Below are positions 60,142 through 64,000 of a stretch of DNA of 64,000 bases, in pieces (positions within the stretch are counted from its first letter, which is position 1; each line of letters opens with the position of its first letter). Source of the stretch: Aestuariibaculum sediminum (GTDB lineage Bacteria > Bacteroidota > Bacteroidia > Flavobacteriales > Flavobacteriaceae); contig NZ_JACVXB010000007.1 of NCBI RefSeq assembly GCF_014596945.1, positions 98,547 to 162,546 on the forward strand, written 5' to 3'. The position numbers and the translations under genes are program-made. The notes below the pieces were generated by a model. That model was not told where the DNA came from. It did no database searches and saw only the letters and a program-made list of their open reading frames with translations.

Positions 60142-60750
60142 TCACAATGTCCAATTTAGGACACCATCTAATGGATGTTTCATATTTGAAGCAGAGAAAA
60201 CACGTTTTTCCTGAATCAATGAATTTTCCATTCGATTAGTGATTTTTGATATGTAATTATTTAGACTTTTAGTTCCTCTAATAATATTTCCAACTTGCAT
60301 ATAATCTGGAAGACTTCTTTCTGATATGTCTTTTAATGTCAAAATAGATAGTTTTATTCTATCTGGTTTTTCATCTTTTTTTAAACCTTTGTCTAAAATT
60401 GCTGAATGTCCATAACCAACTTCAAATGGAACCCATTGAGATTTGTACGTTTTCTCGGAAACAACAACTAGCATATGGGTACTATTCCTAATCCCTTCTT
60501 TTATACTTTCTGTAATTTTTATTGGATCTTTTTCTCTTGCTGCAATTTGAAGTTCATTATCTAACTCATCTAAATAGTAGTCGATTTCTGCTTGTTTTAA
60601 GTATTCCGCTATTTTTCTACATTCAACTTTATCTTCTTTCTTATGACTTAAAAAAACACAAGGTCTTTTCTTAAAATTTGAGGAATCGTAGGCTGTCAAT
60701 AACCACTCAATATTTTCATAGACATTTGCCTTATTTAATCCTTTCTTCAT
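60142..60750 (-). CDS. TIR domain protein (second TIR of the operon)
   Basis: 202 residues. After a 29-residue lead, RPCVFLSHKKEDKVECRKIAEYLKQAEIDYYLDE opens a TIR domain, with SHMLVVVSEKTYKSQWVPFEVGYGHS-like text (residues 91-116) giving the S-x-W-x-x-x-E motif (Ser104, Trp106, Glu110), where the Glu is the NAD-cleaving residue in active TIRs. It follows the SLATT gene with no intergenic base (stop 60751-60753, ATG 60748-60750). I infer it cleaves NAD or makes a TIR-type signal in anti-phage defence. Confidence 0.82.
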   Translation of the reverse strand: MKKGLNKANVYENIEWLLTAYDSSNFKKRPCVFLSHKKEDKVECRKIAEYLKQAEIDYYLDELDNELQIAAREKDPIKITESIKEGIRNSTHMLVVVSEKTYKSQWVPFEVGYGHSAILDKGLKKDEKPDRIKLSILTLKDISERSLPDYMQVGNIIRGTKSLNNYISKITNRMENSLIQEKRVFSASNMKHPLDGVLNWTL

Positions 60751-61635
60751 TTACTTTCGTCTTTGTGCCAACCAAAGTGTGTGTTCTCTGGAAATAGCAT
60801 TTTCTGAATCTAGAATGAATTCAGATAGTTCTTCTTCTGTGCTTACATTGTAAGATAGTTGCTTAATGAAATTTAACTCTTCAGATGCTGTTGTGTAAGC
60901 CTGTTTTTGTTCTTGATGTTGTTTTATTTGTAACCAACTAATTGCTGAAGAAGCAATTGTAGTTAACAATCCTACGACATTCCAATTACTTTCTGGATTA
61001 TTCATAAGAACTACAATAGATATTAATGCCAGAAATTGAGAAGCTATGATTACCCAAAACCAAAAATTATATCTGACTTTATTCCATTCAGCTTTTTTTG
61101 AATACCAACCTTGTTGGTCTTCTATTCTATTTTTAATGTAGTAGCTTTTTCGCTCGTACATTGAGAGATTTCTTAATTCAACCATTTTAGACGTAATAAT
61201 TTCTTGGTTCAGTATTTTAGAATCCATAGATTTTGATAAATCCTTAAATTCGTTCGAAACTTCTCTAATTCTCTGAATAAATCTTTCTTTTGCAGTGTTT
61301 ATGTTTAAACCTTGTTCAAAATATTCGGCACAAGTTACAAATCTCCAAGTAAGTGTTTTACTTGATTCTGCCAAAGCTCTTCCTTGATACCAAATGTCCT
61401 CGTATTTTTTACTTTTTAAAACGATAGTTAATATCAAACCTATAAGCAGAAATAATCCAGTAAAACTATAAACCCAAAATTTTTGAGAAACATCTTGAAA
61501 ACTATAAATAGCGAGTAATGCTGCAATAATCATTGAAATTAAATCTATACGAATAATATTCAGATATGATTTTTGAGATTTAATAGAGATGCTATCAGCA
61601 GCCTGAAAATAATTTGGGAAATCTTTTAATTCCAT
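60751..61635 (-). CDS. SLATT / DUF4231 four-helix membrane protein, predicted effector
   Basis: 294 residues. Two membrane hairpins: about 28-46 and 53-73, then 190-211 and 219-236. The segment WYQGRALAESSKTLTWRF (82-99) after the first pair, and YIKNRIEDQQGWYSKKAEWN before the second, match the SLATT and DUF4231 families, described computationally as membrane (pore-forming) effectors of nucleotide-signal conflict systems. The start overlaps the upstream TIR-like stop by one base (TAATG), and the next TIR begins directly after its stop. It is the likely killer module of the operon; that is inference. Confidence 0.8.
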   Translation of the reverse strand: MELKDFPNYFQAADSISIKSQKSYLNIIRIDLISMIIAALLAIYSFQDVSQKFWVYSFTGLFLLIGLILTIVLKSKKYEDIWYQGRALAESSKTLTWRFVTCAEYFEQGLNINTAKERFIQRIREVSNEFKDLSKSMDSKILNQEIITSKMVELRNLSMYERKSYYIKNRIEDQQGWYSKKAEWNKVRYNFWFWVIIASQFLALISIVVLMNNPESNWNVVGLLTTIASSAISWLQIKQHQEQKQAYTTASEELNFIKQLSYNVSTEEELSEFILDSENAISREHTLWLAQRRK

Positions 61636-62222
61636 TATGGCTTAACTTTAGTTTTATCTGCAATTGGTTTACTTCTTTTATCAAAAGCCTTATCAATATA
61701 GAACTCTGGATTTTGCACAAAATCACTCCATTTTACAAGTACACAATATCTGTCGTCCTCACTCCAAGAACATTTGCCGTATGCTGGTATGTAATAATTG
61801 TGGTTAAATTCTTTTATAACAGTTGAGTCATTAATTCCAACATAATTATGAGAACCTCCGCAGGTGGGACAATTATAAGAACCTTGATAGACTGAGTCGT
61901 ACATTGACGGAAGAACTATTCCTAAAATTCCACTTTTCGAATTATTTTGCCCGTTATAAAGCGATGCTTGTAATTCTTTTTTAATATATCGTTGTTCGTG
62001 AGAACCAAGGTCTTCAGAACTTCGTGTGCCAATTAAGAAAATTGTTACAGTTGAATCAGAAAGATAATCTTCTCGAATTTTTCGCATAATATAGTCATCA
62101 TCAAACGAATTGATGGGTTCATTTAATGACTTATCTATCATATCTATATCCATTGCATCTCGAATATGATTTTTATATGCAATATCCTCTGTCTTAAAGC
62201 TTATAAAGCATTTATGTGCCAT
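61635..62222 (-). CDS. ThsB-like TIR-fold protein (DUF1863 type)
   Basis: 195 residues. HKCFISFKTEDIAYKNHIRDAMD is the first strand-helix of the MTH538/ThsB TIR-like family, and STVTIFLIGTRSSEDLGSHEQRYIKKELQASLYNG carries the conserved Ser-Ser and Glu83. An insert with Cys118-x-x-Cys121 (CPTCGG) may bind zinc. In Thoeris, ThsB detects phage and makes a cyclic ADP-ribose signal. Here it leads a three-gene operon with SLATT and another TIR, without any ThsA. It is the first gene; its stop overlaps the SLATT ATG. Confidence 0.82.
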   Translation of the reverse strand: MAHKCFISFKTEDIAYKNHIRDAMDIDMIDKSLNEPINSFDDDYIMRKIREDYLSDSTVTIFLIGTRSSEDLGSHEQRYIKKELQASLYNGQNNSKSGILGIVLPSMYDSVYQGSYNCPTCGGSHNYVGINDSTVIKEFNHNYYIPAYGKCSWSEDDRYCVLVKWSDFVQNPEFYIDKAFDKRSKPIADKTKVKP

Positions 62223-62555
62223 ATGTAGGGTTATAGTTGTTGCAAACTTGTTAAATACTTATATCATAATCTTTAATCAGCTTCATATTCCTGATAAAAA
62301 TAACAATCTATAAGTATAATTTGTTAAATTTTAATTAGCGAATATTTTTAAATGCTATTCATTTCAAATATAAACAATCGCTTTTATTTAAACTATTTCC
62401 TACAATAACTTTATATGAAATTTTTAGAGATTACCAGAAAATGACTATATACCATTTCCATAAAACATCTTTTTAAATTATGTTATTAATCATTCTTGGA
62501 AAATTTTTATACAATGAATCTTCAAACTAAAAAAAACTTAAAAAGAGGCTTTCTT
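62223..62555. other. Promoter region of the TIR-SLATT-TIR operon
   Basis: 333 AT-rich bases without an ORF. A TATATTTG -7-type box lies at 62365-62372 on the minus strand, 143 bases before the operon start, without a clear -33. No palindromic operator is evident. Confidence 0.4.
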
Positions 62556-62909
62556 CTAAAAATTCCTTTCTAATAAAAGTTTTTCTATAGCATCATAGCT
62601 TTCCAATTGTTCATCAGGCAAAATATCGTTTATCAGTTCAAGTATAGTCACTATAGCCAATTCATTTGAAAGATATGGTGTTCTTGGCGAACTTGATGTT
62701 CCCTCAAGTTCCAGTGCAGCTATACTTACCCTTAACAGACAGGAGATCACATAGCGTAATTCGCTATTGTCACTGACATGAAAGATTACTTCTTGGGATA
62801 TCTCCTCCCCGTTTTTAAAGGATCTGCATTTTCTCGGCCTTAAAAGTTCTTTAATAGCTTCCAGTTTTTCTTTATCAGCTTTCTTATTATATTTATTGCT
62901 TTCTTCCAT
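62556..62909 (-). CDS. Small protein of a four-member paralogous array (member 1)
   Basis: 117 residues, soluble, charged N-terminus. The core LRYVISCLLRVSIAALELEG and ILELINDILPDEQLESYDAIEKLL align with the other three members (positions 62930-64000). Closest to the member at 63252-63626, sharing the block SPxYxSNxA after the LExxG motif. I know of no function. It is last in the operon, 20 bases after the preceding gene. Confidence 0.7.
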   Translation of the reverse strand: MEESNKYNKKADKEKLEAIKELLRPRKCRSFKNGEEISQEVIFHVSDNSELRYVISCLLRVSIAALELEGTSSSPRTPYLSNELAIVTILELINDILPDEQLESYDAIEKLLLERNF

Positions 62910-62929
62910 AGTTCCAAAGATTTATTTCT

Positions 62930-63295
62930 TTAATCATTATCTTGCAATAGTCTTCTGGATTTATCCAAAAACGCCAATTCCTCATGTGGTATCAACCTCC
63001 TGAAAAATTCCAGTACATCGGCAAATTGCTTGTGTGCCTCTTTAATGTCCCTTGCTTCATCGTTTGGATCATAGCCATCCAATGCCATGATGCATAGATT
63101 CATAACTGCTTCAAGGGTATAGCCTAGATGCTCATAATTCTTTATGTAAGCAAAGTTTATATAGTTTCCCTTCCGATAGACATGCTTGGGTGTCGGGGTT
63201 AGCAGCCTATAATGTTCCTCAGCCGATTTGTGCAGCTCCTTAAGGCTTTTTCTATTCTTCTTTTGAAGTTGTTTTTTGGCTTTTTTCTTTTTCAT
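62930..63295 (-). CDS. Small protein of a four-member paralogous array (member 2)
   Basis: 121 residues with a very basic start (MKKKKAKKQLQKKNRKSL), then HYRLLTPTPKHVYRKGNYINFAYIKNY, LEAVMNLCIMALDG and VLEFFRRLIPHEELAFLDKSRRLL. Closest to the partial member at the window edge (shared RLLxP, GNYxNxxxxxNY). It overlaps the upstream gene by 44 bases. Function unknown. Confidence 0.7.
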   Translation of the reverse strand: MKKKKAKKQLQKKNRKSLKELHKSAEEHYRLLTPTPKHVYRKGNYINFAYIKNYEHLGYTLEAVMNLCIMALDGYDPNDEARDIKEAHKQFADVLEFFRRLIPHEELAFLDKSRRLLQDND

Positions 63296-63626
63296 CGTCT
63301 CCTTTATTTTTTAGAATTTCATCAATGCAATCCAAACAGTACATCTGTTGGTGTGGTAATAACTCTAAGATCAGCTCTATAACCTTGGTGACACTTTGCT
63401 CCGCAATATTACTTCGATAGGCAGGAGATGTAAACACCCCATTACCGTCCAAACAATAATAGCAGACCTTTAAAAGTTCCTCTATATAGCCGGTTATATC
63501 CTCGTTATTAGAAACCTCTATACTGATGGTTTTCTGTGTCCGGTTTCCATAAGGTTCAATTTTCATACCCGAATGGGCATCGAGTATGTCTTTAATTTTT
63601 TTGATTTGTTTAATCTTGCGTTTCAT
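63252..63626 (-). CDS. Small protein of a four-member paralogous array (member 3)
   Basis: 124 residues: KTISIEVSNNEDITGYIEELLKVCYYCLDGNG, then TSPAYRSNIAEQSVTKVIELILELLPHQQMYCLDCIDEIL, clearly paralogous to the 62556 gene. The C-terminal tail is Lys/Glu-rich. It overlaps both neighbours (44 and 17 bases), indicating one translationally coupled operon. Function unknown. Confidence 0.7.
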   Translation of the reverse strand: MKRKIKQIKKIKDILDAHSGMKIEPYGNRTQKTISIEVSNNEDITGYIEELLKVCYYCLDGNGVFTSPAYRSNIAEQSVTKVIELILELLPHQQMYCLDCIDEILKNKGDDEKEKSQKTTSKEE

Positions 63627-64000
63627 AGGTTTTCTTATTTAATTTTTCATCGGATAACATAAGCTTTCCCATTTCATCTAGGTAAATCCCTTCTTCAAAT
63701 GGAATCAGGTTCTTAGCAAACTCCAACACCCTTTTCACATCTGATTCCTTGTTACTAATATCTAAGGTTAGATCTTGCCTATCTTCTAGAGCCAGAATAC
63801 TAACATTGAGCATAGATTTTAGCGTATTAAATAGGTCTACATAGTTATACACCCGACCATAGTTCAAATAATTGCCCTTATTCTTACCTCCAATTGGGGA
63901 TAACAACTTGAAATTTTCTTGGCTCAATTCTCTTACTCTTTCCAGATTTGTAACGGCTTTTTGAAGTTTCTTTTTATTCTTCTTGTTCGCTTTGTTTTTC
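63610..64000 (-). CDS. Small protein of a four-member paralogous array (member 4), 5' end outside window
   Basis: The frame stays open from the stop at 63610 to the right edge, so the start lies beyond 64000; a TTG at 63927 is not a convincing start because upstream codons encode a basic stretch (KKNKKKLQKAVTNLERVREL) like the start of member 2. Then come NFKLLSPIGGKNKGNYLNYGRVYNY, MLNVSILALED and VLEFAKNLIPFEEGIYLDEMGKLM. Function unknown. Confidence 0.65.
   Translation of the reverse strand, partial: KNKANKKNKKKLQKAVTNLERVRELSQENFKLLSPIGGKNKGNYLNYGRVYNYVDLFNTLKSMLNVSILALEDRQDLTLDISNKESDVKRVLEFAKNLIPFEEGIYLDEMGKLMLSDEKLNKKTYETQD

Follow-up and report, generated by a model that had tools for sequence, protein, structure and literature searches.

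Results

A four-gene array behind an NT-HEPN gene

The window, a 64-kb stretch of Aestuariibaculum sediminum DNA, is part of a 189-kb contig in a 4.04-Mb genome. Its right-hand end carries four consecutive minus-strand open reading frames, m1 to m4 (Table 1), which encode a small domain that we label SD. The original prediction had these genes overlap by up to 44 bases, which is true of m2/m3 (44 bases) and m3/m4 (17 bases), whereas m1 and m2 are separated by a 20-base gap. It also had the array of small genes run on past the window. Extending the sequence to the right, we found instead that m4, whose ATG has its first base at position 64002, two bases outside the window, is the end of the array on that side, and that the next gene encodes a 359-aa protein composed of a nucleotidyltransferase (NTase)-like part, a HEPN domain and a fifth, C-terminal copy of SD (NT-HEPN). 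Along the minus strand the genes are thus read in the order 104-aa gene, NT-HEPN, m4, m3, m2 and m1. The far side of the module is bounded by a divergent XRE gene, followed by genes for a coupling protein (T4SS-DNA_transf) and a DUF5712 protein; we read the latter as a relaxase from its place and size.

Table 1. Features of the SD/NT-HEPN locus. m1 to m4 are given in window positions and all other features in positions of the extended locus L002 (L002 position = window position minus 61454). dN/dS values refer to L143, the nearest relative of this locus.
Feature	Position	Strand	Description
m1, SD protein, subtype 1	62556-62909	minus	117 aa; last gene of the array; dN/dS 0.11
m2, SD protein, subtype 2	62930-63295	minus	121 aa; dN/dS 0.19
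m3, SD protein, subtype 1	63252-63626	minus	124 aa; dN/dS 0.11
m4, SD protein, subtype 2	63610-64002	minus	130 aa; dN/dS 0.09
NT-HEPN gene	L002 2554-3633	minus	359 aa; NTase-like + HEPN + fused SD at residues 280-357
104-aa gene	L002 3653-3967	minus	104 aa; dN/dS 0.17
Third site GGTTCGGTAC	L002 4013-4022	minus	
Iteron GTAAAATACAA	L002 4031-4041	minus	
Iteron GTAAACTACCA	L002 4052-4062	minus	
XRE gene	L002 4132-4542	plus	136 aa; HTH_3, E = 8.5e-11
Coupling protein (T4SS-DNA_transf)	L002 4606-6216	minus	
DUF5712 gene	L002 6229-7254	minus	

The HEPN protein and m1 to m4 are under purifying selection (dN/dS 0.09-0.21 against L143), and the closest named relative at the locus is Aestuariibaculum sp. 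M13, with 89% identity in the HEPN protein. The 104-aa gene has no match in Pfam or NCBIfam; relatives of 104-105 aa occupy the same place in L143, L146-L148 and L153. A scan of positions 62100-64000 returned no terminator (0.7 in shuffled sequence) and promoter-like matches at the shuffle level (9 versus 9.0).

m1 to m4 are genuine paralogues and belong to an undescribed protein family. An SD profile built without this genome and L143 scores m4 at 97, m2 at 94, m3 at 85 and m1 at 76 bits, while 2000 shuffled versions of the four proteins reach at most 16 bits, placing the shared motifs beyond chance; the same profile scores the C-terminus of the HEPN protein at 57 bits. Of the common plan first proposed, a C-terminal L(I/L)P motif followed by LD, the proline is kept across the family (invariant in alignments of 14 and 32 SDs and present in at least 90% of 94 SDs), whereas LD reads YD in m1. 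The proposed division into two subtypes is borne out by blastp: m2 and m4 share 35% identity (E = 1e-20) and m1 and m3 27% (E = 5e-10), with cross-subtype matches at E = 8e-6 (m1-m2), 2e-5 (m1-m4), 3e-5 (m2-m3) and only 0.016 (m3-m4).

Searches of known families gave SD no accepted match in the Pfam, NCBIfam, PHROGs and PADLOC libraries scanned. m1 to m4 drew two weak Pfam matches below cut-off (E = 0.05 and 0.19) and none from PADLOC or NCBIfam. Across 94 SDs, Pfam gave two isolated matches of one member each (E = 0.003 and 0.009), DUF397 not among them, and no immunity family at E 0.01; PHROGs gave none. The best PDB match to the SD profile had E = 0.07, and the viral contigs scanned with m2 held no relative. 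Open PMC literature, as far as its text was available, contained no description of SD proteins, which is no proof that none exists. An AlphaFold2 model of m2 at moderate confidence (pLDDT 76.7, pTM 0.45) consists of a long N-terminal helix, a beta hairpin and three helices; fused SD was modelled at low confidence (pLDDT about 48-65). Over residues 52-121 of the SD model, whose pTM is 0.45, VIA-align returned generic helical bundles (best Z 6.8), and BFVD held no match at E 0.001. The models suggest that SD is a small, mostly helical domain.

The linked protein has a HEPN fold with an altered active site

The HEPN protein of our locus scores 22.5 bits against PF05168, just over the cut-off of 22. 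A profile of 32 NT-HEPN relatives matches the HEPN structure 4nqf with E = 2.6e-16, and a model of the relative from L184 superposes on 4nqf with Z 17.8 (rmsd 2.4 over 145 aligned residues) and on the HEPN domain of sacsin with Z 12.8. The N-terminal ~100 residues of the L184 model resemble nucleotidyltransferases, a likeness that is modest on its own (2rff, Z 7.9 over 91 residues; MntA, Z 6.8). The active-site pattern of nucleotidyltransferases is GS...DxD; by eye, this motif is not visible in the NT-HEPN alignment, which makes AMPylation of HEPN by the fused NTase-like part unlikely.

Within the HEPN domain the Ex3R motif reads HQxxExxxR, with the glutamate invariant and the arginine kept in at least 90% of 32 aligned proteins; an R-Y pair is also kept. 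In our protein, the catalytic Rx4-6H site reads RYTNNYD. Because aspartate replaces the histidine, it is doubtful that this copy cuts RNA. Searching for RY....H, we found the histidine in 40 of 109 HEPN proteins (36 of 99 distinct ones), a count in which 19 of the 109 do not match the search pattern and certain rows (L015, L151) match it at a different stretch. The available text of PMC3710099 describes complete or partial loss of Rx4-6H in NTase-fused HEPN domains, and HEPN-T proteins with aspartate for histidine that keep a conserved histidine elsewhere that could contribute.

A second NT-HEPN copy lies elsewhere in the genome (contig C16, L014 6632-7444; 63% identity) and is degenerate, with several stops. 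The two genes directly ahead of it look like JetC and JetD of Wadjet.

SD types are shared between genera and occur in mixed sets

A tree built from 220 distinct SDs unites each of the four proteins with counterparts in other genera, with supports of 0.997 for m2, 0.958 for m3 and 0.957 for m4; for m1 the support is 0.80 for a 4-tip clade and 0.95 for a 23-tip clade. The repeated duplication of a two-gene module that had been proposed for the array does not fit this tree. Of the 173 SDs from the 58 operons that contain at least two, only two, both in L063, have their closest relative in the tree within their own operon, which argues against a recent two-gene duplication. The alternation of subtypes (m1/m3, m2/m4) stands for our own array and is local to it: assigned by tree neighbours and types, other arrays are ordered m2,m4,m1 (Yeosuana), m2,m4,m3 (L152, an uncultured Flavobacteriaceae), m4,m3,m1 (Zhouia) and m2,m1 (Arenibacter).

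Operons avoid combining SDs of the same type. At the finest clustering, 1 of 195 within-operon pairs is of one type, against a mean of 14.5 and a minimum of 4 over 1000 shuffles; at the second level the figure is 8 (mean 19.8, minimum 9), at the third again 8 (25.2, minimum 10) and at the fourth 25 (44.5, minimum 28), with the reservation that the shuffles ignore kinship between loci and Allomuricauda or Flagellimonas contribute 11 of the 58 operons (L154-L164). Our own m2 and m4 fall into one type at the second level, so that a one-of-each rule is not strict. Certain sets do recur, such as fused D with B and F.

The tree also mixes fused and free SDs. Our free m4 belongs to an 11-tip clade (support 0.85) that also takes in the L165 and L166 SDs, which are fused to HEPN, indicating that SD moves between the two states. 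The fused SD of L109 lies among m1-type proteins; its own clade there is unsupported (0.03) and sits inside the 23-tip clade of 0.95. From such sequence relationships we infer partners in one complex, of which movement between fused and free forms would be a classic sign. The original suggestion that the array encodes partner proteins is supported.

SD genes accompany NT-HEPN genes across Flavobacteriaceae

Across the phylum, a first SD profile found members in 17 of 395 genomes, every one of them from Flavobacteriaceae, and a wider profile in 36 of 397 genomes of this family, spread patchily over 30 of 237 genera. We read 65 loci (our own, four from the first HEPN search and 60 picked from SD matches), which hold 64 SD clusters, L014 having none. 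An NT-HEPN or NT-HEPN-like gene is present in 46 of the 64 clusters and is the first gene in 45 of these; without our own and three HEPN-found loci the linkage is 42 of 60. The close type of NT-HEPN accounts for 28 of 64, and 46 is reached once a divergent ~290-aa type is counted, which is homologous to NT-HEPN (profile-profile probability 96%, E = 2.4e-9, 270 columns). In the other 18 clusters no HEPN gene is close by. As related species supply many of the loci, these linkage counts and the tests of genomic context below are not fully independent.

Searching contigs from the HEPN side confirmed 106 places, 80 of which were kept. SDs are present in 51 of these loci and were not detected in 29: 23 of Sphingobacteriaceae, three of Dyadobacter and three of Sinomicrobium. 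The 51 operons carry no separate SD gene in eight cases, one in 14, two in 14, three in 14 and four in one; four separate genes are found at our locus and at L143. All SD-bearing open reading frames of at least 200 aa are HEPN proteins (72 of 72, some places being represented twice, as are 9 of the 145 loci overall), and the other 177 measure 63-175 aa each; no XRE open reading frame bears an SD. Fused cases may be favoured, as 4 of the 14 rows of the first SD profile are HEPN C-termini. One HEPN protein, at L123 4291-5862, ends in two tandem SDs and is followed by one free SD gene.

Several other arrangements came to light. At L057 (5071-7119) a divergent ~290-aa NT-HEPN gene, a closer NT-HEPN gene and an SD gene stand in tandem, and the two HEPN types may be partners. 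HEPN proteins of ~570 aa in Dyadobacter and Sphingobacteriaceae (L174, L196, L206, L211) seem, by eye, to comprise two NT-HEPN modules, one of each type; they sit in operons with other unknown genes and have no SD, and L206 and L211 keep the XRE iterons described below. In one large genus of the family (g2), pairs of SD genes share a contig region, with ~22-43 kb between them (L053/L054, L059/L060, L061/L062 and similar), several with a divergent XRE gene and some near a 1146-aa gene. Plasmid records matching the HEPN protein number 73 and are mostly rhizobial; none covers more than 80% of the protein, and the 20 listed show 21-27% identity over 45-57%. The annotated neighbours in the one plasmid record inspected include no array.

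A divergent XRE gene with phased iterons

A divergent XRE gene lies upstream in 44 of the 51 HEPN+SD operons found from the HEPN side; a second set of such operons has one in 20 of 28. Its open reading frame is either long (~120-200 aa) or short (71-94 aa). Among the 61 regions of 170 bases ahead of long XRE genes, 42 contain the motif GTAN4ACAA, with 61 sites in total (shuffled mean 1.4, maximum 5 regions). Two strict iterons are present in 19 of the 42, spaced 21 bp apart in 18 of the 19; our own XRE gene has one strict iteron and a near one 21 bp away. A second motif, GGTT(C/G/T)G(G/A)TAC, is found in 24 of 61 regions (shuffled maximum 2).

Five genomes, chosen for holding SD genes, contain seven paired-iteron sites, five of them at arrays; a reversed-pattern control gave one. 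From this distribution, regulation by XRE looks local to the module. The two matches off arrays (G000:C14:325254 and G018:C12:399068) may be chance.

Neighbours of the array are variable

In the window, three genes follow one another at positions 60142-62222: a TIR gene (ThsB-like), a gene whose product combines SLATT_3 with SLATT_1, and another TIR gene. The array does adjoin this operon, as had been pointed out, although the TIR genes are no constant neighbour: homologues of the window's TIR, SLATT and GNAT genes (E 1e-5) occur at our own locus and at 0 of the 144 others. This marks the TIR operon as variable cargo, and linkage in 1 of 145 loci argues against functional coupling of the array to it.

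Comparing 20 SD loci with 20 arbitrary 12-kb windows from the same genomes, we found that 118 array neighbours match 216 PADLOC families (1e-10) and 113 control proteins match 6, counts of families, not proteins, in which one RhuM-like protein alone matched 36 and to which some of the modules' own NT-HEPN-like and XRE proteins contribute. The first 25 of the 216 families listed include type III and II methyltransferases, AriA, Old, GajA, PtuA and AbiLi; the control matches are MADS genes, DolB and PDC-M37B. Of eight core module proteins scanned with PADLOC, only XRE matched, to HTH-type models. Beside L016 lie a UvrD helicase and an OLD/TOPRIM ATPase, a pair that by our reading is Gabija-like, and beside L017 a 1448-aa gene that, by reading only, is Cas9-like. 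The next cargo genes of L143 are not defence genes by Pfam; one is an O-antigen ligase and one has no match. Homologues of our DUF5712 and/or coupling proteins occur in 19 of 145 loci, among them our own, Yeosuana (L015, L117), Zhouia, L116, L125, L143 and L152; DUF5712 was found in 5 of the 118 neighbours.

Discussion

HEPN modules are among the commonest parts of bacterial toxin and defence systems, and described HEPN-MNT modules are two-gene systems. The protein at the head of our array has the fold, the Ex3R motif and, judging from L184, the NTase-like N-terminus of the HEPN superfamily (HEPN-T/PF05168 and NTase-fused HEPN), yet its RYTNNYD departs from the Rx4-6H of the catalytic members, and the available text of PMC3710099 on NTase-fused HEPN proteins mentions neither a C-terminal SD nor standalone SD genes. 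HEPN-MNT (HepT-MntA, type VII; PMC7641770 and PMC11586414, in the parts available) likewise combines HEPN and NTase-type domains in a small module. There, the MNT antitoxin is a separate protein with an intact motif; here, the NTase-like part is fused, shows no GS...DxD by eye, and is accompanied by a regulator and SD subunits. Another likeness is to effector-associated and bacterial Death-like domains, which the available parts of PMC7159879 and PMC8195603 describe as small, non-enzymatic, mostly helical domains with one fused copy and more in adjacent genes. Unlike those, further SD copies are standalone (the 177 short open reading frames) rather than fused to effectors, and neighbouring copies have their closest kin in other operons (the exceptions are 2 of 173). 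DUF397 modules resemble the array in layout: per the available text of PMC7159879, DUF397 is a small protein encoded several times in tandem next to an HTH gene, with a proposed role as toxin and antitoxin, and is probably multimeric. SD differs in having no DUF397 match in Pfam, in its linked NT-HEPN gene and in its occurrence in Bacteroidota, not actinobacteria.

The reading we favour, at a probability of roughly 55%, is an autoregulated HEPN conflict module in which the SD proteins are distinct subunits that would bind and control NT-HEPN. In its favour are the linkage and fusion of SD to NT-HEPN, the exchange between fused and free SDs, the mixed type sets, the divergent XRE gene with its iterons, the purifying selection, the PADLOC matches of the neighbours and the patchy spread; against it stand the missing histidine, the SD clusters without HEPN, the HEPN loci without detected SD, the PADLOC scan in which XRE alone of the core proteins matched, and the non-defence cargo of L143. 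The XRE protein would bind the phased iterons and hold the operon low. NT-HEPN, whose fold is taken from its L184 relative, would be the effector or an effector-derived core of putative activity. The SD proteins, which belong to different old types, would combine with the SD of the core itself into a defined hetero-oligomer, which may keep the core inactive or couple it to a trigger, for instance the entry of a phage or plasmid. As the module in our own clade adjoins the relaxase-like and coupling genes of a mobile element, it may also stabilise that element. A bolder form of this model is possible, and we offer it tentatively: SD would constitute a new class of interaction domain. Around a pseudo-nucleotidyltransferase-HEPN core, the fused copy and one member per old type would form a fixed hetero-oligomer, and the SD complement would set sensing or hold-off, so that Bacteroidota would have a HEPN immune module that is both multi-subunit and combinatorial.

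The SD proteins might instead be partners of the XRE regulator, binding it to lift or set repression. A divergent XRE gene does persist in 22 of the 36 SD clusters without a close HEPN match, and in 8 of the 18 that are HEPN-less under the wider HEPN profile, and the layout recalls the tandem small DUF397 genes beside HTH genes of actinobacteria (available text of PMC7159879). Yet SD is fused to HEPN in 72 open reading frames and to XRE in none, and short and long XRE types swap while the link between SD and HEPN persists, so that we hold a partnership with XRE to be rather improbable. Another alternative is an addiction module, with NT-HEPN as toxin and several SD antitoxins stabilising the DUF5712/coupling-protein element. 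The divergent regulator with its iterons would suit such a module, as would the DUF5712 and/or coupling-protein homologues at 19 loci and the DUF5712 proteins among the neighbours; however, 126 of the 145 loci have no such homologue (in stretches that are in part short), a set of four different antitoxins would be out of the ordinary, and the HEPN histidine is missing in our own clade. We consider this explanation unlikely. The array had originally been likened to immunity genes, here against a secreted or contact-dependent toxin, and small divergent paralogues in tandem do look the part. The linked gene, though, encodes an NT-HEPN protein, an unsystematic reading of the loci brought up no secreted toxin beside the arrays, the types form mixed sets common to several genera rather than local duplicates, and the 94 SDs lack a Pfam immunity family at E 0.01, which together make an immunity array very improbable.

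SD is an unnamed domain that travels with NT-HEPN through many genera of Flavobacteriaceae in defined mixed sets, fused or free, and these sets are accompanied by a dedicated regulator with a recognisable operator-like motif. The analysis yields a profile for the family and a motif for the operator, together with a subunit model open to testing.
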